From a virus, in IMG/VR virus record IMGVR_UViG_3300044681_001056, positions 1 to 41,228 of that record: a stretch of DNA of 41,228 bases; one strand, given 5' to 3'. Below, one piece after another: positions 1-32,842 of this stretch (position 1 is its first letter; every line of letters begins with the position of its first letter). The notes beneath the pieces are model-generated. The model was given only the letters and a program-made list of their open reading frames with translations, did no database searches and had not been told where the DNA came from. Made by a program: the position numbers and the translations under genes.

Positions 1-117
1 GACTACAACGACAGAACCCACAGACACGGGTATGGGGAGAACATAGACGGAACCAGGGCCACCTATGGAGCGGGAATTTCTTCTGGCTCGACCATTGACT
101 TGTCGGTTAAGAAATGA
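1..117 (+). CDS. C-terminal end of an unidentified protein (5' truncated)
   Basis: An open frame runs from base 1 to a TGA at 115-117 and codes for the last 38 residues of a protein whose start lies outside the window. The visible part is rich in Gly, Tyr, Arg and His and ends in DLSVKK. The stop overlaps the next start codon as ATGA (114-117), which is typical of coupled phage genes and is the main reason to believe the frame is real. A Gly/Ser/Thr-rich C-terminus of this sort is common in virion proteins, but nothing here identifies the family. Confidence 0.6.
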   Translation, partial: DYNDRTHRHGYGENIDGTRATYGAGISSGSTIDLSVKK

Positions 118-821
118 CAAAAATAACCCTCAAAAAAACTGAGACCAATGCACCTCAGATAGTTCAATCGCGCTTAAAGCGTGACTGGATGGACGAAACC
201 TACAAAAAGCACGCATATCAGTGCATGCCCATGACGGTTGCAAATGTCCTTGGATGGGAAATCCAAATGCAGGAGGACCTGGTCGTGAAGTGGGAGGGCG
301 GAAATACCGTTCCTAAGATTTTGTCAGGAGAAGTCGCTTCCAACGGCAGAAGGCAAGCAACTTCATCAATCATTGGCATGATATCGATACATATGGGGTG
401 GATAATCAACACGGAACCCGGAGTTGAAACATGGTTCTCTCCATCGCCAAACTATTTTATAGATGGCGCAGTCGGTCTTTCTGCCACAATCCCATCGTGG
501 TGGTGGCCTGATGAGGTTCAGATGAACTGGAAAATCACCAAGGTAAATGAGGAAGTTGTTTTCCCGGCTGGCTCACCTATGTGCTTTTTCACCGTTTACT
601 CCCCACAAATTGTTCTTGATGCGCAATTCGAGGTGACAAGTCTCTGGGACGATAGGGAGTTGGTCCAGTCAAGGTCCAAATACGGGCAGATGAAGTCAAA
701 GAACAACCGAGAAAACCCTTGGACATGGACAAAGGGAATTAAGACAGGTGTTGACGCAGACGGAAAACAGATTGGCCCAACATTCACCGGTTTGCCGACC
801 CTTTCTGAGCCAATGGTATAA
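114..821 (+). CDS. DUF6065-like protein
   Basis: This 235-residue protein is soluble, with no signal peptide or membrane segment. It has an aromatic-rich core: CMPMTVANVLGWEI near residues 37-50, ETWFSPSPNYF near 105-115 and IPSWWWPDEVQMNW near 126-139, followed by FPAGSPMCFF. From memory this pattern matches DUF6065 proteins, which occur in phages and bacteria and are often found beside 2OG-Fe(II) oxygenases. No biochemical function is established for them. The start overlaps the upstream stop (ATGA), and the gene heads a run of co-directional accessory genes. The family assignment is recognition of the pattern, not an alignment, so the call is moderately sure and the function is unknown. 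Confidence 0.7.
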   Translation: MTKITLKKTETNAPQIVQSRLKRDWMDETYKKHAYQCMPMTVANVLGWEIQMQEDLVVKWEGGNTVPKILSGEVASNGRRQATSSIIGMISIHMGWIINTEPGVETWFSPSPNYFIDGAVGLSATIPSWWWPDEVQMNWKITKVNEEVVFPAGSPMCFFTVYSPQIVLDAQFEVTSLWDDRELVQSRSKYGQMKSKNNRENPWTWTKGIKTGVDADGKQIGPTFTGLPTLSEPMV

Positions 822-1872: not shown

Positions 1873-2167
1873 AACACTAGGCGGGCAGCCCCTCTTCGAC
1901 GCCGAGGCGAATCTTGACGAAATAGAGGAAGAGCTTGCAAAAATACTGTACATATGCGGCACTGAGTTTGAGCAGATTTCTGACGTAGATATGGATACTA
2001 TTTTCTTCAACCTCCGCCAATCATTTCATATGAGCAGCACCACATTCAATATGCATGGCAGGCCATATTTTGACTTCACGAGAAAAATGAATTTCCTGCT
2101 CACAAACAGGGCAAGACATCTTTGGTTGCAGAGACAGATAGTAATGGCGGTATTACAAAATGGATAA
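1859..2167 (+). CDS. Hypothetical protein (102 aa)
   Basis: A 102-residue protein with a basic N-terminus, then an acidic helical stretch (ANLDEIEEELAKILYICG) and a C-terminal half rich in Phe, Arg and His. It overlaps the upstream gene by 14 bases and the downstream methyltransferase-like gene by 8 bases. No family is recognised. A length near 100 residues and the lack of cysteine clusters or membrane helices fit a small accessory or regulatory phage protein, but that is only a guess. Confidence 0.55.
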   Translation: MRRSKTLGGQPLFDAEANLDEIEEELAKILYICGTEFEQISDVDMDTIFFNLRQSFHMSSTTFNMHGRPYFDFTRKMNFLLTNRARHLWLQRQIVMAVLQNG

Positions 2168-2885
2168 TTTCGCAATCAGAAGCGCCCTCGTGACGCAGCA
2201 GTCATCCAGGGTGATGATGAGCACTAATCTTGATTTTTCAGCAATAATGACCGAAGCGGGAGAAGCAGCTTCAGCGTGGCTTACGTCAATAAACATAGAT
2301 AAAAGAAATGTCGCTGTTGGCGGATTGAACACGTACTGGATTTATGAACTCATCAAGAAAATGGAGCCAGAGTGGGCTGCAATAATCGAGTCTGAGTACA
2401 TTGCCCAGGAACAGGTGCTGATGACGAAAAAGCCGAACTCTGTTCTTTTTGTTGACGCCGACAACATGCTATGGACTGTTTACAAGAATAGATTCCCAGA
2501 TGCGGAACTGTGTTTTGTCAATAACCACACACTCTTCTTCATGGAGAGCGTCGCCAATAACCTGGATTACCAAGGTGCAAAACTTAGCGAGATTTCTGAG
2601 TATGACGTAGTCGACTCCAGTGACATTGGAAACCACAAATTTGATATGGCCATTTGCTGGGCATGGTCGATTGTTGGTAGCGACAAGATGATTAAAGACC
2701 TGGTCGACTCCCTTAATCCTGGAGGAGTGCTTCTGATTGGCATGTCTAATCACAACACGAAACTTTACAGAGAAGATTTCCACATCCATCCATATTCGAG
2801 CATCCACGAAATTCTTCAGAACTCCGACGGCAATACATACCATCTAGCGAACGGATACGGTCAGACTGTATTTGTCAAAAACTGA
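2160..2885 (+). CDS. Class I methyltransferase-fold protein
   Basis: A 241-residue protein whose second half reads like a SAM-dependent methyltransferase (Rossmann type). There is a hydrophobic strand ending in an acidic residue (SVLFVDADN, about 94-102), a FDMAICWAW strand (161-169) in the position of motif II/IV, and the characteristic LNPGGVLLIG (185-194) seen after motif III. A clear glycine-rich motif I (GxGxG) is missing, so SAM binding is uncertain and the protein could be an inactive or divergent member. It sits directly before the oxygenase cluster, so it could act on the same substrate. The start overlaps the previous gene by 8 bases. Confidence 0.55.
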   Translation: MDNFAIRSALVTQQSSRVMMSTNLDFSAIMTEAGEAASAWLTSINIDKRNVAVGGLNTYWIYELIKKMEPEWAAIIESEYIAQEQVLMTKKPNSVLFVDADNMLWTVYKNRFPDAELCFVNNHTLFFMESVANNLDYQGAKLSEISEYDVVDSSDIGNHKFDMAICWAWSIVGSDKMIKDLVDSLNPGGVLLIGMSNHNTKLYREDFHIHPYSSIHEILQNSDGNTYHLANGYGQTVFVKN

Positions 2886-2916
2886 CAATTTATTAAAGAA
2901 TCAGTAGTGCTAAGAT
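2872..2916 (+). promoter_or_regulatory. Weak hairpin followed by possible extended -10 element
   Basis: TTGTCA (2872-2877) and TGACAA (2883-2888) can pair around a five-base loop at the end of the methyltransferase-like gene, followed by TTTATT. This may act as a weak terminator. Further on, TGC-TAAGAT (2908-2916) looks like an extended -10. If it is used, the transcript would start almost at the ATG at 2926, which lacks a Shine-Dalgarno sequence, implying a near-leaderless message. Both elements are weak. Confidence 0.22.
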
Positions 2917-2925
2917 TTCAAAATT

Positions 2926-3645
2926 ATGGAGCGCGAACCAAGATTTTGGGATGATTTAATTAGGTCGCTTCCCGTATGTTCCCAAATCGAAGAGAACTGG
3001 GAAAAAATTAGAGACGAATATCTGGAGTACGAAGAGACACAGCATCCGTACGCAGCTACCGGAAACAGGGTCTCCCTCCCTGCGCCGAACGTTACTCTTT
3101 CTCATTCGCAATACGAAAATGCCGAACTGACATCAGATAGGGACGGTAGTCATAAGTTGTATACTGGTTCTTGGGATGTCGCTGTTGCTGGCACCGCCCC
3201 AGGTGGAGACCCAAAACAATGGGCAAACACCGAAATGGTGAAGAAGATACTCAAGTGGAAAACAAGGGTTGACCTCGATACTCACCTGGAATATGTCCGC
3301 CAACAATTTAAAACATTTAATTCAATTGTTGAGCAATACGCAGACCGGAATCAGTGCTCTGGCGGAATGTTTAGCATCATGCATCCAGGTGCAGTGGTGA
3401 ACCCACATTTCGGGTCTGACGAAATGATGCGGTGTCATCTATGCCTAATAAATGACACCGGTTGCAAAATAACTGTTGGCGACGAAACCAGAAATTGGGA
3501 AGAGGGGAGAATACTTGCATTCAAAGATGGCCGACCGTTCGAGCACTCCGTTAGGCACGACGGTGAGTCAAGAAGGCTCGTTTTGATGTTTGATTTTGAT
3601 ATGGAGTATTTGAGAACAAAATTCCCGGGCGCACAGTATTTGTAG
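2926..3645 (+). CDS. Aspartyl/asparaginyl beta-hydroxylase-like 2OG oxygenase
   Basis: A 239-residue cytosolic protein of the AspH type (PF05118-like). This group uses Fe(II), 2-oxoglutarate and oxygen to hydroxylate Asp or Asn side chains. The C-terminal half carries the family pattern: HPGAVVNPHFGSDEMMRCHL with the first metal His at H161, R169 and H171 for 2OG binding, then DGRPFEHSVRH with the second metal His at H207, and an Arg pair at 216-217. AspH enzymes use two His and no carboxylate, so the missing Asp is normal. The N-terminal 100 residues are not assigned. It is the first of seven oxygenases on this strand. The protein target is unknown. Confidence 0.8.
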   Translation: MEREPRFWDDLIRSLPVCSQIEENWEKIRDEYLEYEETQHPYAATGNRVSLPAPNVTLSHSQYENAELTSDRDGSHKLYTGSWDVAVAGTAPGGDPKQWANTEMVKKILKWKTRVDLDTHLEYVRQQFKTFNSIVEQYADRNQCSGGMFSIMHPGAVVNPHFGSDEMMRCHLCLINDTGCKITVGDETRNWEEGRILAFKDGRPFEHSVRHDGESRRLVLMFDFDMEYLRTKFPGAQYL

Positions 3646-4317
3646 ATGATTCTCGTAGAGGATAACTGCGTAACGGGCGAGCTGTACAAAAGGGTTGCCG
3701 ATACAGAAGATTTTTTCGCAGTAAATTTTGAAAACGACGAGCAAATAGCGCGCGAGCTGAACTCCTACCACGGCGAGTCCAAGGGAATGTCCTCGTACAT
3801 GTTCTGGGGAGGCTGGATTAACGACAAAGAGAGGACAATCAAGCATGAGGTCATCCGACAAATCTGGGATGGGAGGCTCCCGTTCCCGGTTGAGGATGTC
3901 ATCGGGTTTGAGTACTGGACGCGCACATTCGAGCCTGGTCAATTCATAGGGCCCCACGTCGATGAGGACACATTCGCATATCGATTGACAAAAACGTTTT
4001 ATGGCCCGAGAATCGGGTGTGTTTGGTATGGCCGCGACAATGGAGATGGCGGATTCCTGGAGATACACCAAAACCCCATAGAAGATGGCTCCACATTGGC
4101 GCTAGAGCCCTCTAGGATGCCCCAGTTTGCGTCAGAACCGCAAAATAGGGAATTGGTGGCATACAAGGGAAATAGGCTCGTCATATTCGACTCTGGGCAC
4201 GTTCTCCATAGCACCACTCCGGCTGGTTCTGGACTCAGGCAGGTGATGGTGATTAATGTATGGACGAGAGATTTGCCCCCTATGGGATTAGCTACAGGAG
4301 AGTTCGTTTATGAATAA
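3646..4317 (+). CDS. 2OG-Fe(II) oxygenase (P4H-like fold)
   Basis: A 223-residue oxygenase with a full set of ligands: H104-V-D106 in FEPGQFIGPHVDED, H188 in FDSGHVLHST, and R198 in SGLRQVMVINVW for the 2OG carboxylate. The double-stranded beta-helix strands are recognisable around them. It starts immediately after the AspH-like stop codon and overlaps the next gene by 8 bases, so the genes are probably translated together. It does not belong to the four closely related paralogues further along. Substrate unknown; protein side chain, glycan or small molecule are all possible. Confidence 0.85.
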   Translation: MILVEDNCVTGELYKRVADTEDFFAVNFENDEQIARELNSYHGESKGMSSYMFWGGWINDKERTIKHEVIRQIWDGRLPFPVEDVIGFEYWTRTFEPGQFIGPHVDEDTFAYRLTKTFYGPRIGCVWYGRDNGDGGFLEIHQNPIEDGSTLALEPSRMPQFASEPQNRELVAYKGNRLVIFDSGHVLHSTTPAGSGLRQVMVINVWTRDLPPMGLATGEFVYE

Positions 4318-4924
4318 CGGTGGTTGGATTTGGCTCGTTCCGGTAAGGGCGCATGAATCTTTCATAAAAGGTCTTGACTACCCCAAAATCGCCCAGCAGA
4401 TACTCGAATCCAGAATCCCTCCGGATTTTCCTGACGCAAAAGAATTCGTAGACGTACAGAGTGGCGTTGACTACGTACTTCCAGACACCATTGAATGCAC
4501 AGTTCTGAAAGAGGAAATAGAGCGGAGAGCAAATGACGTTCTTGGCGAGCTGTACTTGGCCGACATATGGTGCGGGATTTTGGAGAAAGGGCAGTCCACT
4601 CCTTACCACCGTCACAGCTCAAATGCCCACCTGTATCCAGAAGAATATTGGTCTGGCGTTATCTACATAGATGCCGTCGGTCCGGGATGCAGACTGTGTC
4701 TCTACGCCGATGCAATGAACGCATACAACATGGTCACAAAAATAGAGCCAGAAACGGGCAAGATTGTCTTCTTTAATTCATTTGTTCCGCATCAGACAGA
4801 GAGGCACAATGAAGACAGGCCACGAGTTTGCGTAAGTTTCAATCTCTACCCGAAGAACCCAACAACAACAATTTATCCAGACATGAGCCCGTGGGCGCGA
4901 CGAAAAATTGAAGAGCTTGGGTAA
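4310..4924 (+). CDS. Putative 2OG-Fe(II) oxygenase (PF13759-like)
   Basis: A 204-residue protein resembling the putative 2OG-Fe(II) oxygenases of PF13759. Features include W-C-G-I-L-E-K-G before YHRHSSNAHL (99-108), SGVIYIDA (115-122), KIVFFNSFVPHQTERH (151-166) and RPRVCVSFNLYP with R172. The likely metal ligands are His in YHRHSS and H161 or H166. There is no clear HxD, and the first site reads H-R-H-S-S, so the metal set may be two or three His. Oxygenase activity is therefore less certain than for its neighbours. It overlaps the upstream gene by 8 bases. Confidence 0.7.
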   Translation: MNNGGWIWLVPVRAHESFIKGLDYPKIAQQILESRIPPDFPDAKEFVDVQSGVDYVLPDTIECTVLKEEIERRANDVLGELYLADIWCGILEKGQSTPYHRHSSNAHLYPEEYWSGVIYIDAVGPGCRLCLYADAMNAYNMVTKIEPETGKIVFFNSFVPHQTERHNEDRPRVCVSFNLYPKNPTTTIYPDMSPWARRKIEELG

Positions 4925-5227
4925 ATGTTTTCTGGTTCCTGGCTAGCCGATGTCGACACACCGTTCGGTGTAGAGACATACGAACTAAATGTAAACCAAG
5001 ACGGTTCAATCAAAATTGGGTCAAACAGGGGTTCGGTAGATGTACCGCCAGGCAATGTCGTTTTTGGTGAGTGCGGCGAAACTCTCCGGGCGACATTTGG
5101 TATCGACGCTCCGATGATTACCACGGTTCAAATAGATTTTGACTCCAAACACCTCGCCGGAGCGGTTGTCATTGGGGAATTCCTTGGGACGGCATTTAGG
5201 TGCAGAACGGTCGAGGAAAATGTCTGA
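4925..5227 (+). CDS. Small beta-rich hypothetical protein (100 aa)
   Basis: A 100-residue protein beginning right after the preceding stop. The sequence FSGSWLADVDTPFGVETYEL, then a DGSIKIG turn, reads as an antiparallel beta sheet or small barrel of the kind seen in ligand-binding or lipocalin-like domains. This is a fold guess only. It has two cysteines (in FGECGE and FRCRTV) and no signal peptide. It ends by overlapping the GPx-like gene as ATGTCTGA. Its location between oxygenases and a thioredoxin-fold protein suggests a binding or accessory role in the same pathway. Confidence 0.55.
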   Translation: MFSGSWLADVDTPFGVETYELNVNQDGSIKIGSNRGSVDVPPGNVVFGECGETLRATFGIDAPMITTVQIDFDSKHLAGAVVIGEFLGTAFRCRTVEENV

Positions 5228-5834
5228 ATCAATATTTGACATAGACATAAATTCAATAGACGGCTCCGGTGGTCTGCTCGACAAATTGCGCGGGCAAGTT
5301 ATTCTCCACGTAAACATAGCCAGCAAAACCGGATATTCACCAAGATGCAGCAAGTTGTGGTCATACGCAAGGACATCAAGGAATTTTTGGGAATTGCAAC
5401 AAATACATGAACTGTTCTCCGGGGATGGATTCAGTGTTGTCGGATATCCGTGCAATCAATTTGGCCAAATGGAGATAGGTGATAACCAAGAGATACTGAG
5501 TAACATCAGGAAAACATATCCTTTCGTAAGCTTCCCAATTGCAGAAAAAGTCATCGTCAATGGAGACGGCGAGCACCCTGTCTATTCCTTTCTCAAGGGG
5601 ACACTGATACGCAATTTCAGCGATAGCAGGGCGGACACGAGCCAAGCCGCAACCGATGGGCAGAACAAGGCAGGTCAGGTGGCAATGCGCGTCCCACACA
5701 ACTGGGAGAAGTTTCTAACTTCCAGAGAGGGGATTTATGTCGCCAGATTTAACTGGGCAGAATCTCCAGTTTCTGATGTGCCGATGTTCGGGGGAGGGCA
5801 GTCAATCAAGGAAGCCATAAAGGGGCTTTTGTGA
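5220..5834 (+). CDS. Glutathione peroxidase-fold protein lacking the usual peroxidatic Cys
   Basis: A 204-residue thioredoxin-fold protein of the glutathione peroxidase family. It has VNIASKTGYSP (31-41), the second GPx signature GYPCNQFG (75-82) and HNWEKFLTSREG (160-171). In ordinary GPx the residue after NVASK is Cys or Sec. Here it is Thr37 (codon ACC, so not selenocysteine), and the Trp of the usual W-N-F-x-K-F is His160. Relative to typical GPx there are about 13 extra residues between the first site and GYPCNQFG, including Cys43. Peroxidase activity by the standard mechanism is doubtful, though Cys43 or Cys78 might serve. I place the start at ATG 5220, with GAGG just upstream, rather than at earlier in-frame codons, because it gives the normal GPx length and a phage-like 8-base overlap. 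Confidence 0.8.
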   Translation: MSESIFDIDINSIDGSGGLLDKLRGQVILHVNIASKTGYSPRCSKLWSYARTSRNFWELQQIHELFSGDGFSVVGYPCNQFGQMEIGDNQEILSNIRKTYPFVSFPIAEKVIVNGDGEHPVYSFLKGTLIRNFSDSRADTSQAATDGQNKAGQVAMRVPHNWEKFLTSREGIYVARFNWAESPVSDVPMFGGGQSIKEAIKGLL

Positions 5835-6667
5835 ATGATGCAATCAATCACGGATTTGGCATAGTTGAATTTCAAGACATCGTAAAGTTTGATTTTGCCG
5901 ATATCGAGACAGAGATAAACAGTCTCGCCGATAAGGCCATATCGGAAAACTTCAAAATAATAAGAGATGAAGACGGCACCCCAATCCACGCCGTGAACCA
6001 AGGTGGATTTATCTACTCCATCGAGAACATGAATTTAGCCCCATTGCGCCTCCAGGCCCTCGGTCCGAATATCTACAATATTTTTGAGCCTGCTATTTAC
6101 TCTGCGCTTCTCCAGTACATAGAAATATTCCCAGCGATACTCACATGTCTTTGGTGGAGGACTACCGGTCATATCCTGAAGTACTCAAAGGGCGGCTCGC
6201 TGGGTCTCCACTCAGACAATGATGTTAATTACAGGTACGGTTTTGAACCCAAAGAAGAGCACGCAACAAGAAACGTTGTTAGCGCAATTGTGTTTCTCAA
6301 CGACTGGTCTGAGCACCCAGAGGAGGGCAAGTTCACTGGCGGGGAGATGATTTTTCCTTACGCTGACGTAACAATTTGTCCTAAGTCAGGAAATGTTCTC
6401 ATGTTCCCGGCCAATTACGTGGCAGCGCACGAAATAGCAACGGTTACGAGCGGAAGTAGATACACATATCTTGGCTGGTTTGCCCAGGGTTCGGCGATGC
6501 CAGCAAAGGGCATAAGCCCTCAGCCGGACATATCTGTCAATGGGGGACAAGTGTGGCTCAACTCGCTGGTTGAGGATTATGATTCGTACATAAATTCAAA
6601 GTATGGCGGCAATCCACCTGACGTGTCAGTTGCCCACAGGTCCAGGAGCAATGACCATGAACAATAG
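5831..6667 (+). CDS. 2OG-Fe(II) oxygenase, P4H-like paralogue A (GTG start)
   Basis: A 278-residue 2OG oxygenase starting with GTG in a GTGA overlap with the previous stop. The catalytic set is complete: H127-S-D129 in LGLHSDND, H200 in NYVAAHEIATV and R210 in SGSRYTYLGWF. It also has WWRTTGHILKY before the first site and TGGEMIFPY between strands. The same framework occurs at 6657-7559, 7560-8345 and, on the other strand, 9905-10978, so this is one of four paralogues. These resemble prolyl 4-hydroxylase-type enzymes acting on peptides, but the substrate is not known. Confidence 0.88.
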   Translation: MNDAINHGFGIVEFQDIVKFDFADIETEINSLADKAISENFKIIRDEDGTPIHAVNQGGFIYSIENMNLAPLRLQALGPNIYNIFEPAIYSALLQYIEIFPAILTCLWWRTTGHILKYSKGGSLGLHSDNDVNYRYGFEPKEEHATRNVVSAIVFLNDWSEHPEEGKFTGGEMIFPYADVTICPKSGNVLMFPANYVAAHEIATVTSGSRYTYLGWFAQGSAMPAKGISPQPDISVNGGQVWLNSLVEDYDSYINSKYGGNPPDVSVAHRSRSNDHEQ

Positions 6668-7559
6668 GTTCAATGACGTGGAGATGGTTGAGATGGGCGG
6701 GGGAGTTTGCCTATTCCCGAAAGCAATCGACTGCGATTGGAACTTTGTTTACGAGACCTCTAGGGGGCTGGTGGACAGGGATGCTGGAGATATGTATTCA
6801 GAGACAGTGCATCCAGAAACAGGCCAGAAAGCACTTATAAACAGGAGTGGTTATATTTTTGACTACGAAACATTCCTGTCAATGCCCAGTAGGTGCTCAT
6901 CTGCCCACCAGAACTGCAGCGATGAATTTAGGGAAATTCTAGAGTTTTGGGAATCATCCAAAGACAAGTATTTGCTGAAGTACATGCTCAGATATCCGTT
7001 GGCATATAAAAACATATGGTGGAAGGTGAAAGGCCACATAGTGAGGTATGGCTCATTCAATGGTAAATCCAGGGATAACCAATATTTAGGAATCCATTCG
7101 GACACAAGCGCCGATTACGTCTATGGGTACAGCCATCCGTCTGACCAGCTGGCAACGAGAAATACCCTTTCCTGCATCGTCTACATAAATGACTGCGAGG
7201 AGCCAAGAACATCCGAGATGGCGTTTTCTGGCGGTCACCACTATTTCAATGAGTTGGACATTGATTATCGCCCAAGCAAGGGCGACATATTGATGTTTCC
7301 TTCAAACTACATAGCCTCGCATGAGGTCAGGCAAGTTACCTCCGGAGAGAGATACTCCTATCTCGGATGGTATTCACACGGGAGTCCGAACGGGGACTAC
7401 AACGAACACATCGCCGACCCGGCAACAGAACCAGACACCGCACGGGTGTCGACAAATGTTTACTTGCCGAACCTGCGCAAGGACTTTAGGGATTACATAG
7501 AGAAATGTGGAGTTAACAAAAACAACTACGCATACTCGCTAGTTGCGGACGGGTTTTAA
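6657..7559 (+). CDS. 2OG-Fe(II) oxygenase, P4H-like paralogue B
   Basis: A 300-residue oxygenase. The preferred start is ATG 6657, with AGGAG nine bases upstream. ATG 6651 in the same frame is possible but too close to that site. Ligands: H147-S-D149 in LGIHSDTSADY, H222 in NYIASHEVRQV and R232 in SGERYSYLGWY. It shares WWKVKGHIVRY and SGGHHYFNE with its paralogues, but the second reads GGHH where the others have GGE. It overlaps paralogue A by 11 bases and is followed directly by paralogue C. The N-terminal 100 residues differ from those of the other copies, suggesting a different substrate. Confidence 0.87.
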   Translation: MNNRFNDVEMVEMGGGVCLFPKAIDCDWNFVYETSRGLVDRDAGDMYSETVHPETGQKALINRSGYIFDYETFLSMPSRCSSAHQNCSDEFREILEFWESSKDKYLLKYMLRYPLAYKNIWWKVKGHIVRYGSFNGKSRDNQYLGIHSDTSADYVYGYSHPSDQLATRNTLSCIVYINDCEEPRTSEMAFSGGHHYFNELDIDYRPSKGDILMFPSNYIASHEVRQVTSGERYSYLGWYSHGSPNGDYNEHIADPATEPDTARVSTNVYLPNLRKDFRDYIEKCGVNKNNYAYSLVADGF

Positions 7560-8345
7560 ATGAGAGCAACACATCTTGGAAGTGGAATTGTCAAGTTCGA
7601 TGGTGTTCTGTCGACTGATAAAAATGATGTCATGTCCTTTCTGGCTAGTCTTTTGTCGAATACAAAGCCCGAAGGATACTCGGAGCCACAAGATGGGATA
7701 GAGAGAAATTCTGGTGGATACCAGCACAGCTCAAGTCAGGTGAAGCTCGCGCCCGACAGATATATAAATGTAAATTTTGAAGGAATCCAACAGGCAGACA
7801 AGGAAACGCTCATCGACCTGGAGAACTCCACAAATATCGCTGTTCTTCAGTACTTGAAGCACTTTCCGTCGGCGGCAACGTCCGTCAAGTGGAGAACAAG
7901 GGGTTATGTAATCAAATACGAGCGTGGGCAAATGATTGGGCCACACTCCGATGCCTCTCTTCCATACGCCGATGACGGTATGACACCACTGACAATGTTA
8001 CCCATAACAAACACCCTGACGTGCAGCATTTTCCTGAATGACGACTTTGGTGGTGGTGAGCTTCACTTCAGGCCTTGGGGAATTACGGTAAAACCAGAGT
8101 TTGGTTCAATAGTTGTTTACCCATCCAACTTTTCTGGGTGTCACGAGATAACCCCGGTCACCAGTGGAACGAGATTTGCATATTTGTCGTGGTTTTGTCA
8201 TGGGGTGCTGAATGTTTCTCCTCCGTTTGGGCAAAAGTGCGATGACATGGGGAACTTTTCTTACTATCTCGAAGACATTTCGGACTTTCCGGTGAGGTAT
8301 GAGCAGAAGATGGTCACGGTTGGCAATCTTGATTGGATTGCATAG
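7560..8345 (+). CDS. 2OG-Fe(II) oxygenase, P4H-like paralogue C
   Basis: A 261-residue oxygenase that begins at the base after the preceding stop. Catalytic residues are H129-S-D131 in MIGPHSDAS, H195 in NFSGCHEITPV and R205 in SGTRFAYLSWF. It keeps the GGGELHF turn and the ten-residue spacing between the second His and the Arg that all four paralogues share. The N-terminal region is shorter than in the other copies. The substrate is unknown. Confidence 0.86.
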   Translation: MRATHLGSGIVKFDGVLSTDKNDVMSFLASLLSNTKPEGYSEPQDGIERNSGGYQHSSSQVKLAPDRYINVNFEGIQQADKETLIDLENSTNIAVLQYLKHFPSAATSVKWRTRGYVIKYERGQMIGPHSDASLPYADDGMTPLTMLPITNTLTCSIFLNDDFGGGELHFRPWGITVKPEFGSIVVYPSNFSGCHEITPVTSGTRFAYLSWFCHGVLNVSPPFGQKCDDMGNFSYYLEDISDFPVRYEQKMVTVGNLDWIA

Positions 8346-8347
8346 CA

Positions 8348-9178
8348 ATGGACGTGGGAATTGTTTCTCCAGGGAGAATGGGTCTGACCATAGCTCGGTC
8401 GCTGCAGGAACTCGGTCATTCTGTATTTTTTGCATCTGTAAATAGGTCTATGGAGACGATTGAGAGGGCCTCGTGCGGCGGAATTGAGAATGTATTTAGT
8501 CTCGAGAGAATGTCCAAACGATGTAACGCAATCATATGCATAGGCACTGGTGATGCTGCTTTTGAAACCGTGAACAAGGTGCACAAGGATGGTTTCAGTG
8601 GTTTGTATATCGACTTCAACTCACTGAACGGAGAAGATGAAGAAAGAAAGTGGAGAACTATAACATCCAACTACACGGACAATTTTGCAGAGGGAGCAAT
8701 TAGGGGTTACCCAATTGAAGGAAACAATTTGAATGACGGGCTGAGCAGGCTGATGATTCTGTCCGGCCCAAAGGCTGATGAGGCCGCTGCTCTATTTTCC
8801 GGAGGAATATGGGATATACAGGTATCGGCAACGGCGGCAAAATCTGTCAATCGACTCATGGCATCAGGTGGCAACACCGTGATAAGAGACCACCTCTACC
8901 AAGACAAAACAACCCAAAAAGACGAGCACTGGGAAGATGAGATGCTCAACATAATTGCTAATAAGTTCTACGTTGACGGACGCACTGGAGCAGAGACAAT
9001 GGTGTACATATGGGAGCAAATCAGGGACGGAAAACTCCGCGAAATATGCATAGAGCTTGGCTTCCCCGAACAGCTGGGGTTTATTCACGGCATAAATACA
9101 TTTAGCAAGAATCTAAGAATTAACAACTCTCTCGATAAGCCTCGAGGCGAGCTCCCGCTTTGGCAGGAGCCAAGATGA
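8348..9178 (+). CDS. NAD(P)-binding dehydrogenase-like protein (beta-hydroxyacid/6PGDH type)
   Basis: A 276-residue protein with an N-terminal Rossmann domain: VGIVSPGRMGLTIARSLQEL has the G-x-x-x-x-G-x-M-G layout of 3-hydroxyisobutyrate/6-phosphogluconate dehydrogenases, followed by a second strand with Ser/Asn in the position that often contacts NADP phosphate. A mid-protein segment (VSATAAKSVNRLMASGGNTV) is where these enzymes keep a catalytic Lys, and a Lys is present there. The C-terminal half would be the helical domain. It lies between two oxygenases, so it may oxidise or reduce a product of theirs. Start at ATG 8348, two bases after the stop of paralogue C. Confidence 0.65.
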   Translation: MDVGIVSPGRMGLTIARSLQELGHSVFFASVNRSMETIERASCGGIENVFSLERMSKRCNAIICIGTGDAAFETVNKVHKDGFSGLYIDFNSLNGEDEERKWRTITSNYTDNFAEGAIRGYPIEGNNLNDGLSRLMILSGPKADEAAALFSGGIWDIQVSATAAKSVNRLMASGGNTVIRDHLYQDKTTQKDEHWEDEMLNIIANKFYVDGRTGAETMVYIWEQIRDGKLREICIELGFPEQLGFIHGINTFSKNLRINNSLDKPRGELPLWQEPR

Positions 9179-9936
9179 ATAAGAGTTATTTTGAGCACTA
9201 TTTTGGTATGGACGGATACATGGTTTTTCCAAATGCCGTCCCAAGAGAGCTCCTCGACGCATACAGAGGTAAGTATCCACGCGATGTGGTCATGAACAGC
9301 GCGCCGTATTCGTCGTACTTTTCGTCTAGGTTCGAGTTCTTGGATAACAAGGAGATATTGGACATCGCCTGTTTGCCGATACTCAACAAAGTTTTCGCAT
9401 ACATGGGAAAGTATTTTCGTGTTCACATGAGTGAGGCGAGAGTCGGTAGCTCATCCATCAAGTGGCATAGGGACTTCAATCCGAGCCACATCGGCTACGG
9501 TTCGTCCGGCTACATAGAGAGCGGAGATGAATACATGGGCCTGCTTGTCGCTATTTCCGATGCACAGGAGGGCTCCGGATGCTTCGAGCTTGTCCCAGGT
9601 TCACACAAATGGGAAACAGATTATTCGGTAGTAACAAGAGAAAATCTCCTGAATAACCCAGATATCTGTTTTGATTATTACGAGAAACTCATACACGACA
9701 AACGCGCTACCACATTTGAATTTGCTCCACGAAGTGGTGACATGCTCTTATGGCATGGGAGCCTGATTCATAGAGGGAAACAACCCGACAGGAATGGACT
9801 TGAGCGAGAGTCTTTACTTATTCACTACGCCGGAATTTCACACGATGACGTTATTAGAAATACGTATGAGGAGAGCGACTTGATGGCAAAGGAATATCCA
9901 GGTTCTAGGATGATTCTCCAGGGACTTCCCGAATAA
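9175..9936 (+). CDS. Phytanoyl-CoA dioxygenase (PhyH)-like 2OG oxygenase
   Basis: A 253-residue PhyH-family protein. It has the first metal site H98-R-D100 in IKWHRDFNP, the typical GSGCFELVPGSHKWE (133-147), then RSGDMLLWHGSLIHRG with the distal His at H199, and R211 (GLERESLLIHY). PhyH enzymes hydroxylate small molecules such as lipids or secondary metabolites rather than proteins, which sets it apart from its P4H-like neighbours. The start is ATG 9175, overlapping the previous stop as ATGA with AGGAG upstream. The 3' end overlaps by 32 bases the convergent gene on the minus strand. Confidence 0.87.
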   Translation: MNKSYFEHYFGMDGYMVFPNAVPRELLDAYRGKYPRDVVMNSAPYSSYFSSRFEFLDNKEILDIACLPILNKVFAYMGKYFRVHMSEARVGSSSIKWHRDFNPSHIGYGSSGYIESGDEYMGLLVAISDAQEGSGCFELVPGSHKWETDYSVVTRENLLNNPDICFDYYEKLIHDKRATTFEFAPRSGDMLLWHGSLIHRGKQPDRNGLERESLLIHYAGISHDDVIRNTYEESDLMAKEYPGSRMILQGLPE

Positions 9937-10978
9937 GCTGCTCCGGGTATATTTTCCCGCGATTTTCCGTCTCTTCAATAATCTTTTTGGCCTCATACCG
10001 CTTGGATAAACCATTTTCCCCTTCAAGCGTTCTGTTTTGGAATACTGGATTTGTTTTCATTACATCGAAGTCTGATTGGCCAAACTCTGCATGCTTCGCA
10101 TATAGCGAGTAGTCGTCGTAGAGGGAATCAATCCAGTGGGGGCGACACCAATCATCAACTTCGTCCGGCTCTGAAACATTTATCAAAACATCATCATGCG
10201 ATGAGCCCTGCGAAAAGAACTCTAAATAACCGTAGCGCTTCCCCGATTTGACGCTATGCACTCCGTGCGTGGCTATGTAGTTGCAGGGGAATATGACGAT
10301 ATCGCCGGCCTTGGCCTGATGTGTTATTCCAAGATATGGGAAGAATAGTTCGCCCCCCGTATAGTTCGTACCATCAAGCTCCGCAGAAGTGGAAACGCAG
10401 TCGTTCACATACAGCATTACGGCAACAACTTGCCGCATCTGCACCTGGCCCTTGGGGACGAATCTCTCTCCTCCCGTTGCTCTGTAATTTGAGTCGTTAT
10501 CGTTGTGTACGCCAAGATAGTCGCCCTCGTCATATCTGAGTAGATGCCCCCTGCTTCTCCACCAGATTGTTCCGACAACGAATGGGAATCTATGAACGTA
10601 CTTGAGCAGGCATTTGTATATCTGGTCTTCCCAGTCCCTGAATATTTCGACCATCTCCGGCTCCGTAGCTTTTGTTACCGGCTGAAGAACTCGGATTGGA
10701 ACCTCCTCGACTTGCTCTATTGAGAACTTGTTACCGTCCTCGTTAACCGCATACATCTGCCCAGATTCGTCATACTGATACTTCCATCTCTGCTCGTGTG
10801 CTGCTTGCGCGTTTCTGTCGGCCCACGGCATAACGATTTCTTTTTTGGTGTCGACTGCATTCCTAAAACAGACAACTCCACCGCCAAGGTGTATGTCTTC
10901 GAGCGAATCAATTTCAAGCACTTCCTTTTTGCCTATTTTGGGCGTGCTTCCTATCAGGGCGGGGAAGTCAAGACTCAT
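9905..10978 (-). CDS. 2OG-Fe(II) oxygenase, P4H-like paralogue D
   Basis: A 357-residue oxygenase, the longest of the four P4H-like paralogues and the only one on this strand. Ligands are H158-N-D160 in YLGVHNDNDSNY, H238 in NYIATHGVHSV and R248 in SGKRYGYLEFF. It also has WWRSRGHLLRY and TGGELFFPY. It carries a longer N-terminal region and about 60 extra charged residues at the C-terminus. Its start overlaps the stop of the GT60-like glycosyltransferase by 4 bases (ATGA), so the two are almost certainly co-expressed at the end of the tail operon. This makes it the best candidate to create the acceptor for that glycosyltransferase. Confidence 0.88.
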   Translation of the reverse strand: MSLDFPALIGSTPKIGKKEVLEIDSLEDIHLGGGVVCFRNAVDTKKEIVMPWADRNAQAAHEQRWKYQYDESGQMYAVNEDGNKFSIEQVEEVPIRVLQPVTKATEPEMVEIFRDWEDQIYKCLLKYVHRFPFVVGTIWWRSRGHLLRYDEGDYLGVHNDNDSNYRATGGERFVPKGQVQMRQVVAVMLYVNDCVSTSAELDGTNYTGGELFFPYLGITHQAKAGDIVIFPCNYIATHGVHSVKSGKRYGYLEFFSQGSSHDDVLINVSEPDEVDDWCRPHWIDSLYDDYSLYAKHAEFGQSDFDVMKTNPVFQNRTLEGENGLSKRYEAKKIIEETENRGKIYPEQLIREVPGESS

Positions 10979-11916
10979 TCAAAACAACTCCTGTAGTCAA
11001 GTCCCATCTCACCACAATACTCGATAAAGGAATCTAGCGTTTCCGCACCGAAGTAACCTATTTCATTTGCGGAAAGTATCGACCTGTAGTGCCGTGCGAA
11101 CTCCCTGTACGCAGACGTTATGTGGATTCCACCTTCGTCATGTCTTTGGATTCTTGACTTCCAGTCATCCAAACCAGGCCCGCTGAGATATTTCTCATTT
11201 TTTCCGAGGTGGTAGGCAATTTTTTCTTTAATCGCAAAAATTCTGTATCCCCTTGTCCACGCTCTTATTGGAATAGTATGTTCCTCTCCGAAAAACACAA
11301 CCCGAGGGTCAGGGAACACATCCTTCACGAATTCGCCAGTTGTAAAAAAGAAATGACCAGATATAAACATATGACGCACGTAGTATGGGAGGTCGCCCCA
11401 CTCGCCCGAATCTACTATTGGTGAGGTCATGTCTTCTGTGTATTCTGTAATATTCTTTATGTACTCGACAGACTCTGCGTCGTACCCGAGTGGATTTGCA
11501 AGGGAGTCGTGGAATACCTCGGTTCCATCATCCATTTTTTCAAACCATGGAGTCCTATTGGATATTATTATCTTGCAGTAAGCCCTATTTAAATATGTGT
11601 AGGCGAGAACCAACTTTCTATCCCAGTTCTCCTCCATGCGCATATGGGCATCGAGCCGCATGAAGAAATCCTGGCCATTCCAGAGCATTGATGCTTCAGC
11701 GAATTGAAACCCCAGGCCACGCAAAACATTTGTGTGTGTATTTATGGACCTTACGTTTGTGTATTCAGAAAAGTCTTGGAAAATTCCGTCTGTTCTTTGG
11801 TTCGATACGCCTACGTAGATTTTGTCGGGATGTGCGGCATTTGAGTAAATGCTTTCAATCGTGTTTAATAGGTCATCCTCGTCGAGAGACGGAATGGCTA
11901 TAAATATTGATGCCAC
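10975..11916 (-). CDS. GT60-like (Skp1 GlcNAc-transferase-type) glycosyltransferase
   Basis: About 313 residues. ASIFIAIPSLDEDDLLNTIE is the N-terminal strand and helix, FFMRLDAHMRM (about 84-94) holds the D-A-H metal site typical of GlcNAc-type transferases (PF11397), and VVFFGEEHTIPIRAWTRGYR is the conserved acidic segment near the C-terminus. Characterised GT60 enzymes add GlcNAc to hydroxyproline of Skp1 in Dictyostelium, and other family members modify mucin-type proteins. The frame is open further upstream, but that part overlaps the zinc-binding gene. I prefer GTG at 11916 (TAGTG overlap), with GTG at 11922 also possible. It is cytosolic, with no membrane anchor. Confidence 0.82.
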   Translation of the reverse strand: MASIFIAIPSLDEDDLLNTIESIYSNAAHPDKIYVGVSNQRTDGIFQDFSEYTNVRSINTHTNVLRGLGFQFAEASMLWNGQDFFMRLDAHMRMEENWDRKLVLAYTYLNRAYCKIIISNRTPWFEKMDDGTEVFHDSLANPLGYDAESVEYIKNITEYTEDMTSPIVDSGEWGDLPYYVRHMFISGHFFFTTGEFVKDVFPDPRVVFFGEEHTIPIRAWTRGYRIFAIKEKIAYHLGKNEKYLSGPGLDDWKSRIQRHDEGGIHITSAYREFARHYRSILSANEIGYFGAETLDSFIEYCGEMGLDYRSCFE

Positions 11917-12143
11917 TACCACTTGCCAATTGGGCAGACCGCGCCTTCCAGGGTCACCTTCATCGGCATTATGCATCCGCACTCCCTGCATTGCCGCGTC
12001 GACTTTATGAGACGTGGGCACTCCAAGCAGATTGCATACCTGCGCTCGGACTCCTCTTTTTCTACCTTTTGCACTCTTGGGTCAATCACATCCCATGGCC
12101 TGGTGGAGCCAAGCTTCTCCTTGTATCTTTGCCAGGCGTTCAT
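11916..12143 (-). CDS. Small zinc-ribbon protein (DUF6171-like)
   Basis: A 75-residue protein with Cys39-x-x-Cys42, Cys52-x-x-Cys55 and Cys70 in the order ICLECP, QCRECGC and AVCPIGKW. It therefore probably binds one zinc or iron. The ending CPIGKW preceded by an M-K-x-K-like stretch is a common pattern in phage proteins near tail fibre genes (DUF6171-like, from memory). The role is unknown, perhaps a fibre-assembly or DNA/RNA-binding factor. It overlaps the glycosyltransferase start and is three bases after the 79-residue gene, within one operon. Confidence 0.75.
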   Translation of the reverse strand: MNAWQRYKEKLGSTRPWDVIDPRVQKVEKEESERRYAICLECPRLIKSTRQCRECGCIMPMKVTLEGAVCPIGKW

Positions 12144-12145
12144 TT

Positions 12146-12385
12146 CTATACCCCTTCAGGAGCGTTGAAATGTTCTCCATCCCAAATCCAGCCAGGTCTA
12201 GCACCCTTGGCCTGCTCTGGGGTTATCGGGATTATTGTTGGATTAGATTCAAGGGCGGCAAGAAGACCTTCCATCTCTACCGACTGAGCAAAAACTATTG
12301 GACCGGCATATTCACCGTCCACCAGAACGGCAAAAAATCTCACTGGTCTTGTGTCTGCGCCTTCTGGGATTTCCATAAGTGGCAT
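12146..12385 (-). CDS. Hypothetical tail-associated protein (79 aa)
   Basis: A 79-residue protein: FFAVLVDGEYAGPIVFAQ, then a helix and ESNPTIIPI, ending in RPGWIWDGEHFNAPEG. The C-terminal G-W-x-W-D-G motif is frequent in small phage proteins encoded beside tail fibres, where some act as fibre chaperones. That role is inferred only from context. It has no Cys, signal or membrane segment. Confidence 0.6.
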   Translation of the reverse strand: MPLMEIPEGADTRPVRFFAVLVDGEYAGPIVFAQSVEMEGLLAALESNPTIIPITPEQAKGARPGWIWDGEHFNAPEGV

Positions 12386-12397
12386 ATCTTCTCCTAT

Positions 12398-12410
12398 TTG
12401 AATAATTCAA
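12398..12410. repeat. 13-base palindrome between genes
   Basis: TTGAATAATTCAA is a perfect palindrome around a central base, placed in the 32-base gap between the FN3/PPFF gene and the next gene. It is too short and AU-rich to be a good terminator. It could be a protein-binding site or chance. Confidence 0.3.
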
Positions 12411-12417
12411 CCTAATA

Positions 12418-13056
12418 CTAACAGCCGAACGGCAGGTCTTGCCACAGGCTCCAATCGGTGAACGACGGGCAACTGCAACCAGAGCATGCTCCGCCGCATC
12501 CGGTCCCAGACGAGCCACTCGCCCCACACGAGCCGTCGTAGTAGATACCGGTTCTTCTCTGTACATTCGGGTAATTGCATCGGTACTCTTCCACGGCCTG
12601 ACCGACACAGCATACGCATGGTGGCGGGAAATCCGGCGGGAAGAACGGCGGGAAGAATGGCGGGAAGAACGGCGGAAAGAATGGCGGAAAGAATGGCGGG
12701 AAAAACGGCGGGAAGAATGGCGGGAAGTAAGGCGGAGCAACGGTAGTTATGCTGTTTGAAGACGAAGAAGACTGACTATTGACTCCATATGAAGTCTGAG
12801 CAGCAACTGTGAATGTGTATGTTGTCGAAACCGTCAGACCATTTACCGTTATTGGAGATGTTGTGCTTGAACCAGTAATCCCACCAGGGCTGGAAGTGGC
12901 GACATATGTAACTGTCCCTCCCTTTCCGGTATAAGAGGGTGGGGTGAATGCAACGGTTGCCGAATTCGCTCCAGTTGCCGTTGCCGTGCCAACGGTTGGC
13001 GAGCCGGGGACGGAGCCACCGGAAACAGCGCCTGGACCTGGGCGACCTGGAATCAT
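12418..13056 (-). CDS. FN3-domain virion protein with (PPFF)n stalk and Cys-rich tip
   Basis: 212 residues in three parts. Residues 17-107 form a fibronectin type III domain (PGSPTVGTATATGANSATV, TVTYVATSSPGG, GLTVSTTYTFTV). Residues 108-146 are a tetrapeptide repeat: PPYF, seven PPFF, PPDF, PPP. Residues 147-212 hold about ten Cys among Gly/Ser (CVCC, SGTGCGGACSGCSC). The repeat should form an extended, hydrophobic polyproline-like rod, and the tip may be disulphide- or metal-stabilised. It follows the fibre gene by a TAATG overlap, so it is probably an adhesin or tip protein of the tail. The prolines and Ser/Thr-rich linker are plausible sites for hydroxylation and glycosylation by the downstream enzymes (inference). 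Start ATG 13056 is chosen over an upstream in-frame ATG that would overlap the fibre gene more. Confidence 0.75.
   Translation of the reverse strand: MIPGRPGPGAVSGGSVPGSPTVGTATATGANSATVAFTPPSYTGKGGTVTYVATSSPGGITGSSTTSPITVNGLTVSTTYTFTVAAQTSYGVNSQSSSSSNSITTVAPPYFPPFFPPFFPPFFPPFFPPFFPPFFPPFFPPDFPPPCVCCVGQAVEEYRCNYPNVQRRTGIYYDGSCGASGSSGTGCGGACSGCSCPSFTDWSLWQDLPFGC
12635..12730 (-). repeat. 12-bp tandem repeat encoding PPFF
   Basis: Eight adjacent 12-base units on the plus strand read GGCGGGAAGAAT or variants with A/G and C/T changes, ending with GGCGGGAAGTAA (the PPYF unit). On the coding strand each unit gives Pro-Pro-Phe-Phe or Tyr. Such an array can gain or lose units by slippage without breaking the frame, which would alter stalk length. 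It is inside a coding region and is not a CRISPR array. Confidence 0.9.
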
Positions 13057-30358: not shown

Positions 30359-30907
30359 TTAGCGGTCAGGATTTGGCGGGGACTCAATTAGTGGTTCATC
30401 GTCGAATGCGCCCGGTGGGGCCTCCACCGGAACCCACGCTCGAGAGTAGGTGTGTTCGTGTATTTTGCGAACTTTTATTATCGAGCCATCAAGCATTAGG
30501 GCCAATTCGTCAGGCTTCATGCATAGGATTCGTTCAAAATCTTCCCGCGCATATTTCTTTGACTGCTTCATTTTCCTTATAGATGTTGACATCTTTTTGG
30601 CAACGACCGAACCTCTCCCCCTATTCAGGCGGAGATGCATCATCATCGCCTCAAGAAGGTCTACGTCATGGAATACGACAGGAATTTTGTTTCCGACTTT
30701 CTTCTTTATCGCAGAAACATTCTTTGCCAAAAGGACTCGCTCGCTTCCGTCTATTACCTCTTTTGTCGATTCGCGCACATGAATTGGCTGGATAAACCCC
30801 AATTCAGAAAGAGAGCCAGACAGAACTAGGAGGTCTGGCCTGAGTATGTGTGTTGTCTTCCATTCTGGGACAATCAGCTCGTCAATGTCAATGTGTTCAA
30901 TTTTCAT
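30359..30907 (-). CDS. ParB/Srx-fold protein (IbrB-like position)
   Basis: A 182-residue protein with the ParB/sulfiredoxin pattern: IDIDELIVPEW, then LSELGFIQPIHVRES, KEVIDGSERVLLAKNVS and KIPVVFHDVD. The G-S-E-R replaces the usual G-x-R of partition ParB proteins. The C-terminus is Pro/acid-rich. It overlaps by 11 bases the PAPS-reductase-like gene, which itself follows another ParB-like gene. In enterobacterial prophages the pair IbrA (PAPS-reductase-like) and IbrB (ParB-like) regulates other genes. Whether this pair does so is unknown. Confidence 0.72.
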   Translation of the reverse strand: MKIEHIDIDELIVPEWKTTHILRPDLLVLSGSLSELGFIQPIHVRESTKEVIDGSERVLLAKNVSAIKKKVGNKIPVVFHDVDLLEAMMMHLRLNRGRGSVVAKKMSTSIRKMKQSKKYAREDFERILCMKPDELALMLDGSIIKVRKIHEHTYSRAWVPVEAPPGAFDDEPLIESPPNPDR

Positions 30908-32042: not shown

Positions 32043-32842
32043 TCGCTCTCTATGAATTCAGAAGCAAAGTTGGAAAGCTTTTCACCGTTCGTGGTTCCAG
32101 AAATTGATTCATTCGCACGAAGCCATCTCATAAAGTCATACCAAGTCGACTGTTGGTCTGGATTATCAAAAACAATCGTGTACTGAACAACGGCCTGCGG
32201 TGCGGAGCCATGGGGTATTACGGTTGCACCCCTTGTGGCCAGGTCAGTCTGATTTGTTTCCGACTTTTTCGCAGCTACCTCGCGAGCCAATCTCATCTGG
32301 GCCTCAACATCTTGGGCGCGTTCTGCGGTTGATACAAATGGATTGTTGACAGGCTCACTTATTGATGGTGTTACGTATTCTCCTGTCGACTGAAGTTCAC
32401 TTCCGGATTCAACTATTGCTTCTTGCTCATACGCTGCAAGCTCGAATTCATCCCATTCGAGTTGTTCTAAAAGCTCTGGATAAACGTCGCTGATTTCAGT
32501 AATCAGTCCGGCGAGCATGTCCGGCTCGGTGTAGCCAAGCTCCATTGTTCTATTGTCAGCAAGGGCGAAAGCGATTGCCCGCTTGTCATCGGCATCAAGG
32601 TACACAACGGCTATTTTGTCCCAACCTAGCTCCATGGCCGCCTGAAGCTGATGGTTACCCGCTATCACGGTGGATGTTCCGTCGTCGTTTTTCTTTGCGA
32701 CAATTGGTTTCACTTGGCCGAATTCTTCGTACGACGCCATTATCGCGTCGATGTTTCCAACTCTCGGATTCCTGTCGAGCAATTCCAATTCGTCGACATT
32801 AACGGCCATTGACTGCAGGGATGGATGTATTTTATTGCTCAT
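32039..32842 (-). CDS. ParB-like nuclease-domain protein
   Basis: A 267-residue protein with a clear ParB N-terminal domain: VDELELLDRNPRVGNIDAIM, EFGQVKPIVAKKNDDG, VIAGNHQLQAAMELGWDKIA and VVYLDADDKRAIAFALADNR. The last 140 residues include an acidic linker and YTIVFDNPDQQSTWYDFMRW near the C-terminus. It starts the ParB - PAPS-reductase-like - ParB trio and overlaps the PAPS-reductase-like gene by 4 bases. No partition ParA or parS site is visible. Confidence 0.8.
   Translation of the reverse strand: MSNKIHPSLQSMAVNVDELELLDRNPRVGNIDAIMASYEEFGQVKPIVAKKNDDGTSTVIAGNHQLQAAMELGWDKIAVVYLDADDKRAIAFALADNRTMELGYTEPDMLAGLITEISDVYPELLEQLEWDEFELAAYEQEAIVESGSELQSTGEYVTPSISEPVNNPFVSTAERAQDVEAQMRLAREVAAKKSETNQTDLATRGATVIPHGSAPQAVVQYTIVFDNPDQQSTWYDFMRWLRANESISGTTNGEKLSNFASEFIESE

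Follow-up and report, generated by a model that had tools for sequence, protein, structure and literature searches.

A tail protein with PP(F/Y)F repeats beside a block of 2OG oxygenases in many uncultured, mostly freshwater-type phages suggests a previously undescribed remodelling of the phage's own tail fibre

Introduction

2OG oxygenases are very common in phages, where annotations usually class them with genes for host reprogramming. Elsewhere among viruses, the collagen hydroxylases of chlorella and giant viruses, PBCV-1 vCPH and Mimivirus L230, are 2OG hydroxylases with peptide substrates, of the Gly-X-Y collagen type (L230 couples hydroxylation with glycosylation). The cytoplasmic Skp1 pathway of Dictyostelium and Toxoplasma employs a P4H followed by a GT60-type transferase, so that Hyp143 of Skp1 bears a sugar chain (PMC3515798). 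Among phages, cyanophage S-SCSM1 encodes 24 2OG-Fe(II) oxygenases (PMC9602691), pelagiphages carry 2OG-ferrochelatase clusters with several 2OG genes near each other (PMC9599517), and the Phold survey describes phage phrog_61 oxygenases with a prolyl-hydroxylase-like fold that resemble human EGLN3 (PMC12774648).

The locus studied here, in a 41-kb stretch of viral DNA (henceforth the window; a fragment; related records extend to 134–174 kb), resembles each of these systems in part. Like the Skp1 pathway it combines a P4H-type enzyme (here P4H-like) with a GT60-type transferase, but Skp1 is modified at one Pro of a ubiquitin-ligase subunit, whereas here we find a repeated PPxF tract in a tail protein, a transferase that is optional among the phages and oxygenases that are multiplied. 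The viral collagen hydroxylases differ in that our candidate substrate is PPFF/PPYF (the window tail protein has no Gly-X-Y run) and in that our viruses are tailed phages with many oxygenases per genome. The cyanophage enzymes (phrog_61) belong to the same superfamily and also occur in several copies per phage, but they came without a PPxF tract in the seven records tested, whereas in the window the tract is present and close. The pelagiphage 2OG genes are non-adjacent and paired with ferrochelatase rather than with a tail tract (PMC9599517), and the EGLN3-like proteins are annotated singly in main-text passages of the Phold survey, which note no substrate, array or tract (PMC12774648). Within the open-licence literature, we found no description of DUF6065 (a marker gene of the loci described below), of phage-tail prolyl hydroxylation or of 2OG arrays.

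Results

A first-pass annotation of the window had proposed that four features of one minus-strand unit, namely a P4H-like oxygenase, an overlapping GT60-like transferase and, two genes upstream of the latter, a tail protein with both a PPFF repeat and an FN3 domain, may form a module of modifiers and substrate. All four features are present (Table 1): both enzymes score above their Pfam cut-offs, the transferase gene ends and the P4H gene begins within a single ATGA, and ORFs of 75 and 79 aa intervene before the tail gene. The latter starts with an ATG at 13056, within a TAATG overlap, and its seven PPFF units show codon differences at synonymous sites only. What had been missed were seven further 2OG oxygenases on the convergent plus strand (2926–9936), which make the P4H-like oxygenase one of eight in the window.

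Table 1. Features of the window discussed in the text (coordinates, strand and supporting evidence).
Feature	Position	Strand	Evidence
DUF6065, marker gene of tract-linked arrays	114..821	+	1.7e-41
241-aa predicted protein, conserved in array	2160..2885	+	sequence
Asp/Asn beta-hydroxylase family oxygenase	2926..3645	+	PF05118 1.3e-25
2OG oxygenase, HxD at H104	3646..4317	+	PF13640 26.0 bits, just under 27-bit cut-off
2OG oxygenase	4310..4924	+	PF13759 2.6e-11
Glutathione-peroxidase-like protein (GPX)	5139..5834	+	PF00255 3.5e-24
2OG oxygenase, 37% identical to P4H	5831..6667	+	PF13640 2.6e-11
2OG oxygenase	6603..7559	+	PF13640 8.8e-12
2OG oxygenase	7560..8345	+	PF13640 6.7e-10; HxD at H129, H195
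NAD-binding dehydrogenase-like protein	8333..9178	+	6PGDH-type Rossmann, below cut-off
PhyH-family 2OG oxygenase	9160..9936	+	PF05721 2e-16
P4H-like 2OG-Fe(II) oxygenase, triad H158/D160/H238, R248	9905..10978	-	PF13640 E=3.1e-8
GT60-type glycosyltransferase, DxH at D89-H91	10975..11916	-	PF11397 E=3.1e-29
75-aa Cys-rich small protein (DUF6171-like / phrog_13558); recurs beside tract and GT60	11916..12143	-	
79-aa ORF, predicted only; homologs adjoin tract in several relatives	12146..12385	-	
fn3-domain tail protein, 212 aa, tract mid-protein; proposed substrate	12418..13056	-	fn3 2.2e-6
PPYF(PPFF)7 tract, 8 units of 12 bp	12640..12735	-	sequence

The catalytic residues of the P4H-like oxygenase (i.e., the HxD pair H158/D160, the distal H238 and the basic, 2OG-binding R248) are invariant across 13 orthologs. 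A sequence search of the PDB gave no match for this protein. We compared its structure model, which is only moderately confident (pLDDT 69), with the PDB using Foldseek, and the best matches were peptidyl P4Hs (E 2e-8 to 1e-6; target-normalised TM up to 0.70), namely the enzymes of B. anthracis, P. putida and Chlamydomonas (the latter in complex with (Ser-Pro)5) and the vCPH of PBCV-1. Mimivirus L230 was a Foldseek match as well. The modelled double-stranded beta-helix fold is thus closest to that of peptidyl P4Hs. The DUF6065 model showed a weak resemblance to dUTPase-like beta folds.

The link between P4H and tract is well supported across phages. Our P4H sample comprised 82 loci from one metagenomic virus collection, many of them near-identical, which we grouped into 34 clusters. 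A (PP[FY]F)n tract was found in all 19 P4H-bearing records searched, against 0–1 per record for a backwards-pattern control. Two loci (L022 and L067) showed no tract within 21 kb, but their full records contain one further away, which rules out that these close relatives are without a Pro tract; in every record searched whole, the two enzymes were accompanied by a Pro-rich tail protein, so that the finding named in the first-pass annotation as refuting its module did not occur. The association also held in the other direction: 44 of 50 contigs chosen by the tract only carried 2OG oxygenases, often several genes, compared with 1/43 contigs of a poly-Pro control (Fisher 1e-18), and no 2OG was seen in about six of the 50, these contigs being fragments. 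Every member had a 2OG gene in 23 of 29 tract-protein clusters at 60% identity and in 11 of 15 at 40%. Likewise, loci chosen by DUF6065 contained 2OG genes in 80/80 cases and an upstream, co-directional tract in 34/39.

Gene order is conserved as well. A 2OG or DUF6065 gene lies at most 2.5 kb downstream of 38/49 tracts, but upstream of only 1/38; at one locus (L126) nine 2OG genes and DUF6065 come after the tract gene, with TauD among the array genes. One array (G020) had no tract within 48 kb. The association covers at least five terminase groups that blastp does not connect with one another. Of 21 records in one terminase lineage, 18 have no array, and these are without the tract too.

The abundance of 2OG genes alone does not predict a tract, since 2OG-rich cultured cyanophages (7–13 PF13640 oxygenases) have no PPxF tract; in all, seven 2OG-bearing records from cyanophages or marine phages were tested, each without it. 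These phages rule out the notion that any 2OG-rich phage has the tract, and indicate that phage 2OGs can have other roles. A search of the phage collection found no relative of DUF6065.

The transferase behaves differently. Its PF11397 score (103 bits vs a curated cut-off of 21) and the DxH metal/donor motif, with D89 and H91 unchanged throughout an alignment of 11 phage GTs, identify the family, while a PDB sequence search gave no match and hence no solved relative. The single protein as an IMG/VR query found no relatives; an alignment as query did. GT60 genes occurred in 8/34 P4H clusters (near the P4H in most of the eight) and were missing from the closest relatives of the window, whose P4H is 81% identical, meaning that the transferase is not obligate and that the GT60 step is accessory. 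Unlike in the Skp1 pathway, the two enzymes are therefore not kept together with the substrate. The order tract-2OG-GT60 nevertheless recurs independently in two unrelated loci (L150 and L161). Most of 80 phage loci chosen by GT60 had neither 2OG nor tract nearby, but a Pro/aromatic tract was found in 8/18 of those with 2OG and in 0/62 of those without. Of the module proposed at first, the pairing of oxygenase and Pro-rich tail protein is strongly supported: the two co-occur whichever is searched for first, their gene order is conserved, and the controls within a lineage agree. The transferase is not an obligate part, nor is the module a unit of three genes: the conserved unit is larger, consisting of the tract protein, several 2OG oxygenases and DUF6065.

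The best sheath matches were to Gordonia, Brevibacterium and Arthrobacter phages (34–41%), and a genome-contig search for the host returned three MAG contigs only; an actinobacterial host is a guess.

Discussion

We propose that the window is one version of a phage operon that modifies its own tail fibre, and that its oxygenases probably hydroxylate the tract. The PPxF repeat would be the substrate, hydroxylated during virion assembly by the P4H-like oxygenase and the array of seven 2OG-Fe(II) oxygenases with DUF6065; Pro residues would be modified first, possibly also Phe/Tyr or others, with site preference differing by enzyme. In the window, as in a minority of its relatives, GT60 may then add a sugar to the new hydroxyls, and glycosylation of the tract in some phages is conceivable, if rather doubtful. 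The effect on the virion could be a stiffer or protected stalk, or changed binding to the host surface.

A full three-step scheme, in which the P4H hydroxylates the PPFF prolines and GT60 adds GlcNAc to hydroxyproline, as PhyA and Gnt1 do on Skp1, is a sub-case of this explanation and compatible with it. The overlap of the two genes in the window, their proximity in other clusters, the order in L150 and L161 and the invariant DxH all fit such a scheme. However, most P4H genomes, the closest included, do without GT60, most GT60-chosen loci show neither a 2OG gene nor a tract in the vicinity, and PF11397 is a broad family, on which the putative GlcNAc-on-hydroxyproline chemistry of the window transferase rests. 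We thus regard the complete scheme as possible, with the balance tilted against it.

Accessory genes generally collect in tail-fibre regions, and the 2OG array could be an auxiliary metabolic or host-takeover cassette that happens to sit in such a hot spot, the tract being a structural stalk only. As proposed for cyanophages, the cassette would tune 2-oxoglutarate, nitrogen or proteins of the host, for instance EF-Tu. Cyanophages do hold many 2OG genes without a tract, those of S-SCSM1 have been interpreted as host reprogramming (PMC9602691), and the P. putida P4H among our fold matches acts on EF-Tu. By contrast, the linkage we observe is specific to the PPxF tract rather than to Pro-rich proteins generally (see the poly-Pro control), it is reciprocal and ordered, and array and tract are gained or lost jointly within one terminase lineage, all of which makes a cassette of this kind unlikely.

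Even less probable is that the array decorates small molecules, lipids or glycans instead of modifying protein. The PhyH, PF05118, dehydrogenase-like and GPX-like genes of the window and the TauD of L126 would suit this, as they include families with small-molecule substrates, but we saw no scaffold-making enzymes, the P4H model fits peptidyl hydroxylases best and the tract linkage would be left unexplained. Finally, it is very improbable that the association solely reflects common ancestry within a single lineage of aquatic phages: despite the near-identity of many P4H loci and their single source collection, the association persists after clustering and across five unrelated terminase groups, and terminase sisters without the array also have no tract.

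Hydroxylation of the tail tract by the neighbouring oxygenases hence remains our preferred reading. A bolder version of it, to which we give slightly less than an even chance, is a widespread, dedicated system of tailed phages: as many as roughly twelve distinct 2OG oxygenases (with DUF6065 and sometimes GT60), encoded together with a tail-fibre protein, would achieve dense, multi-residue hydroxylation and occasional glycosylation of its PPxF repeat, tuning fibre stiffness, adhesion or recognition, in spirit like mussel adhesive or extensin-like patterning. The tract linkage offers a concrete, testable virion substrate for many phage 2OG oxygenases. If our reading is true, phages would possess a large oxygen-dependent protein-modification system, which would yield a set of new peptide hydroxylases acting on a simple repeat, and the properties of their tail fibres would vary with the oxygen, iron and 2-oxoglutarate available in the host.

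Gene content of the window

All of the features named in the first-pass annotation, which had proposed a prolyl 4-hydroxylase-like oxygenase (P4H), a GT60-like transferase and a proline-rich tail protein as a modifier-substrate module, were found in the window (see table), and ATGA is common to the stop of the GT60 gene and the start of the P4H gene. The transferase matched PF11397, the Pfam model for GT60-type GlcNAc transferases. Upstream of the tail protein, which carries a (PP[FY]F)n repeat (henceforth the tract), the window encodes another fn3 tail protein as well as proteins resembling a tail fibre and a baseplate wedge, and the presence of a sheath gene indicates that this phage, represented by a single 41-kb fragment, has a contractile tail. 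Absent from that annotation were seven more 2-oxoglutarate/Fe(II) oxygenase (2OG) genes, which run along the plus strand into the minus-strand unit and are interspersed with GPX-like and dehydrogenase-like genes.

Features of the window discussed in the text
Feature	Coordinates	Strand	Remarks
DUF6065	114-821	plus	window array
Asp/Asn hydroxylase-type 2OG	2926-3645	plus	
PF13640-type 2OG	3646-4317	plus	slightly below cut-off
PF13759-type 2OG	4310-4924	plus	
Three PF13640-type 2OG	5831-8345	plus	
PhyH 2OG	9160-9936	plus	
P4H-like gene	9905-10978	minus	2OG-FeII_Oxy_3, over Pfam cut-off
GT60-type transferase	10975-11916	minus	PF11397, 103 bits vs cut-off 21
Cys-rich protein, 75 aa	11916-12143		DUF6171 / phrog_13558
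Tail protein	12418-13056	minus	fn3 domain + PPYF(PPFF)7
PAPS-reductase-like gene adjoining ParB-like gene	30897-32842		inside structural region

Gene order here is unlike that of other tract loci, as the tract, GT60 and P4H genes are all on the minus strand and the DUF6065 array is convergent. A second tract gene could conceivably lie past the contig end, given that the contig begins at DUF6065 and that some relatives have two tract genes. The Cys-rich protein was also seen near a tract, GT60 or P4H in 53 loci of relatives.

Tracts are associated with oxygenase arrays

The proposed pairing of P4H with a proline-rich tail protein held in related phages: a DNA pattern search over whole records found the tract in 19 of 19 P4H-bearing records, with 0-1 matches per record for the reversed pattern. 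Conversely, when 50 contigs (16 kb or longer) were selected solely for (PP[FY]F)3, 44 carried at least one 2OG (many had five or more), compared with 1 of 43 poly-Pro-tract contigs (Fisher 1e-18), all contigs being metagenomic, mostly fragments, and the counts partly non-independent; the association persisted once contigs were clustered by tract protein. Across 80 tract loci we found DUF6065 in 39 and 2OG in 58 (0 and 2, respectively, in 80 controls). The order was directional, with a 2OG or DUF6065 gene at most 2.5 kb downstream of 38 of 49 tracts vs. upstream of 1 of 38; in one metagenomic locus (L126), the tract protein (4080-4973) is followed by nine 2OG genes and DUF6065, ending at 13922. 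Loci chosen solely by DUF6065 had 2OG genes in 80/80 cases and, where flank was sufficient, an upstream co-directional tract in 34/39.

Terminases of phages with tract and array fell into at least five groups without mutual blastp similarity at E 1e-5. As a lineage control we took 21 records chosen solely by a window-like terminase: 18 had no array (14 without any 2OG match, four with one or two weak ones) and the tract was absent from all 18, while it was present in two of the three array-bearing records, the third being a 48-kb fragment. The tract was likewise absent from seven records of cyanophages or marine phages, which carry between 1 and 13 PF13640 oxygenases each, meaning that 2OG richness alone does not predict it; the predictor is the DUF6065-type array.

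DUF6065, which often accompanies tract-linked arrays, comes in two subfamilies, one sharing 24-30% and the other 44-70% identity with the window copy. An alignment of 44 sequences shows an invariant R-W-M...HAY-C-P...N..GW signature, and the predicted structure, a confident one (pLDDT 92), bears a weak resemblance to dUTPase-like beta folds. A tblastn search against 50,697 phage records gave no match, and a search of open-licence literature found no paper on DUF6065.

Some tail proteins carry further sequence after the tract: a Hint/intein-like domain in seven loci (Pfam matches below cut-off for L150, L161 and L162; by eye for L103, L118, L140 and L156), which suggests self-processing of the fibre, and, by eye, S74-type-chaperone-like sequence (SDVRDK.../SDYRLKENV...) in L131 and L158.

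GT60 is an optional component

A P4H relative is encoded in at least 113 IMG/VR stretches; 82 loci in which an ortholog could be recognised, counting the window, were dereplicated into 34 clusters. Multiple 2OG genes (as many as 12, with lower numbers on short stretches) are present in most of the 82, usually with DUF6065 and GPX. GT60 was found in 8 of the 34 clusters and in no record of the closest relatives (P4H 81% identical), which indicates that P4H is independent of the transferase. The three-part linkage proposed earlier was therefore only partly upheld: GT60 is optional, but the linkage recurs in two unrelated phages (L150, L161), where the gene for a PPFF-tract tail protein immediately precedes one or two 2OG genes, with GT60 coming next. 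In L176 the tract is succeeded by a Cys-rich small protein and this in turn by GT60, whose gene (2836-3799) is apparently split over two frames by a frameshift or sequencing error.

Of 80 GT60-selected loci, 18 had a 2OG gene nearby, and a Pro/aromatic tract occurred in 8 of these 18 vs. 0 of the 62 others, although the eight include near-identical contigs and tract types (PPYF, PPSPYYA, PIPPTF, PPPPRF) were assigned by eye. In L519, L521 and L524, the PPPPRF, PPSPYYA and PIPPTF repeats adjoin 2OG and GT60; these may be other substrates for a system of this kind.

A candidate tail-protein hydroxylation system

P4H residues H158/D160, H238 and R248 are invariant in 13 orthologs (12 relatives 52-81% identical to the window copy). 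The best PDB matches of its predicted structure (pLDDT 69) were peptidyl prolyl 4-hydroxylases (B. anthracis P4H, PBCV-1 vCPH, the Chlamydomonas enzyme bound to (Ser-Pro)5, and P. putida P4H), with Mimivirus lysyl hydroxylase L230 also among the matches. The DxH motif of the transferase is invariant among phage relatives. Judging by these motifs and the P4H fold match, both enzymes look active.

From the observed linkage, motifs and fold we infer a substrate, a chemistry and a benefit to the phage. The tract tail protein, encoded beside the oxygenases, is probably produced together with them; the oxygenases would hydroxylate the tract, using O2, Fe(II) and 2-oxoglutarate, prior to or during virion assembly, and in phages having GT60 a sugar might then be added. 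The number and diversity of oxygenases suggest differing target residues or positions.

To our knowledge, the combination of a PPxF tail tract and an oxygenase array has not been described for the Skp1 pathway, viral collagen hydroxylases or cyanophage and pelagiphage 2OG genes. The nearest described systems are the Skp1 PhyA-Gnt1 pathway (PMC3515798), the viral collagen hydroxylases PBCV-1 vCPH and Mimivirus L230, and cyanophage and pelagiphage 2OG genes (PMC9602691; PMC12774648; PMC9599517). There is a real chance that the tract-array system, while kin to viral protein hydroxylation, deserves a category of its own.
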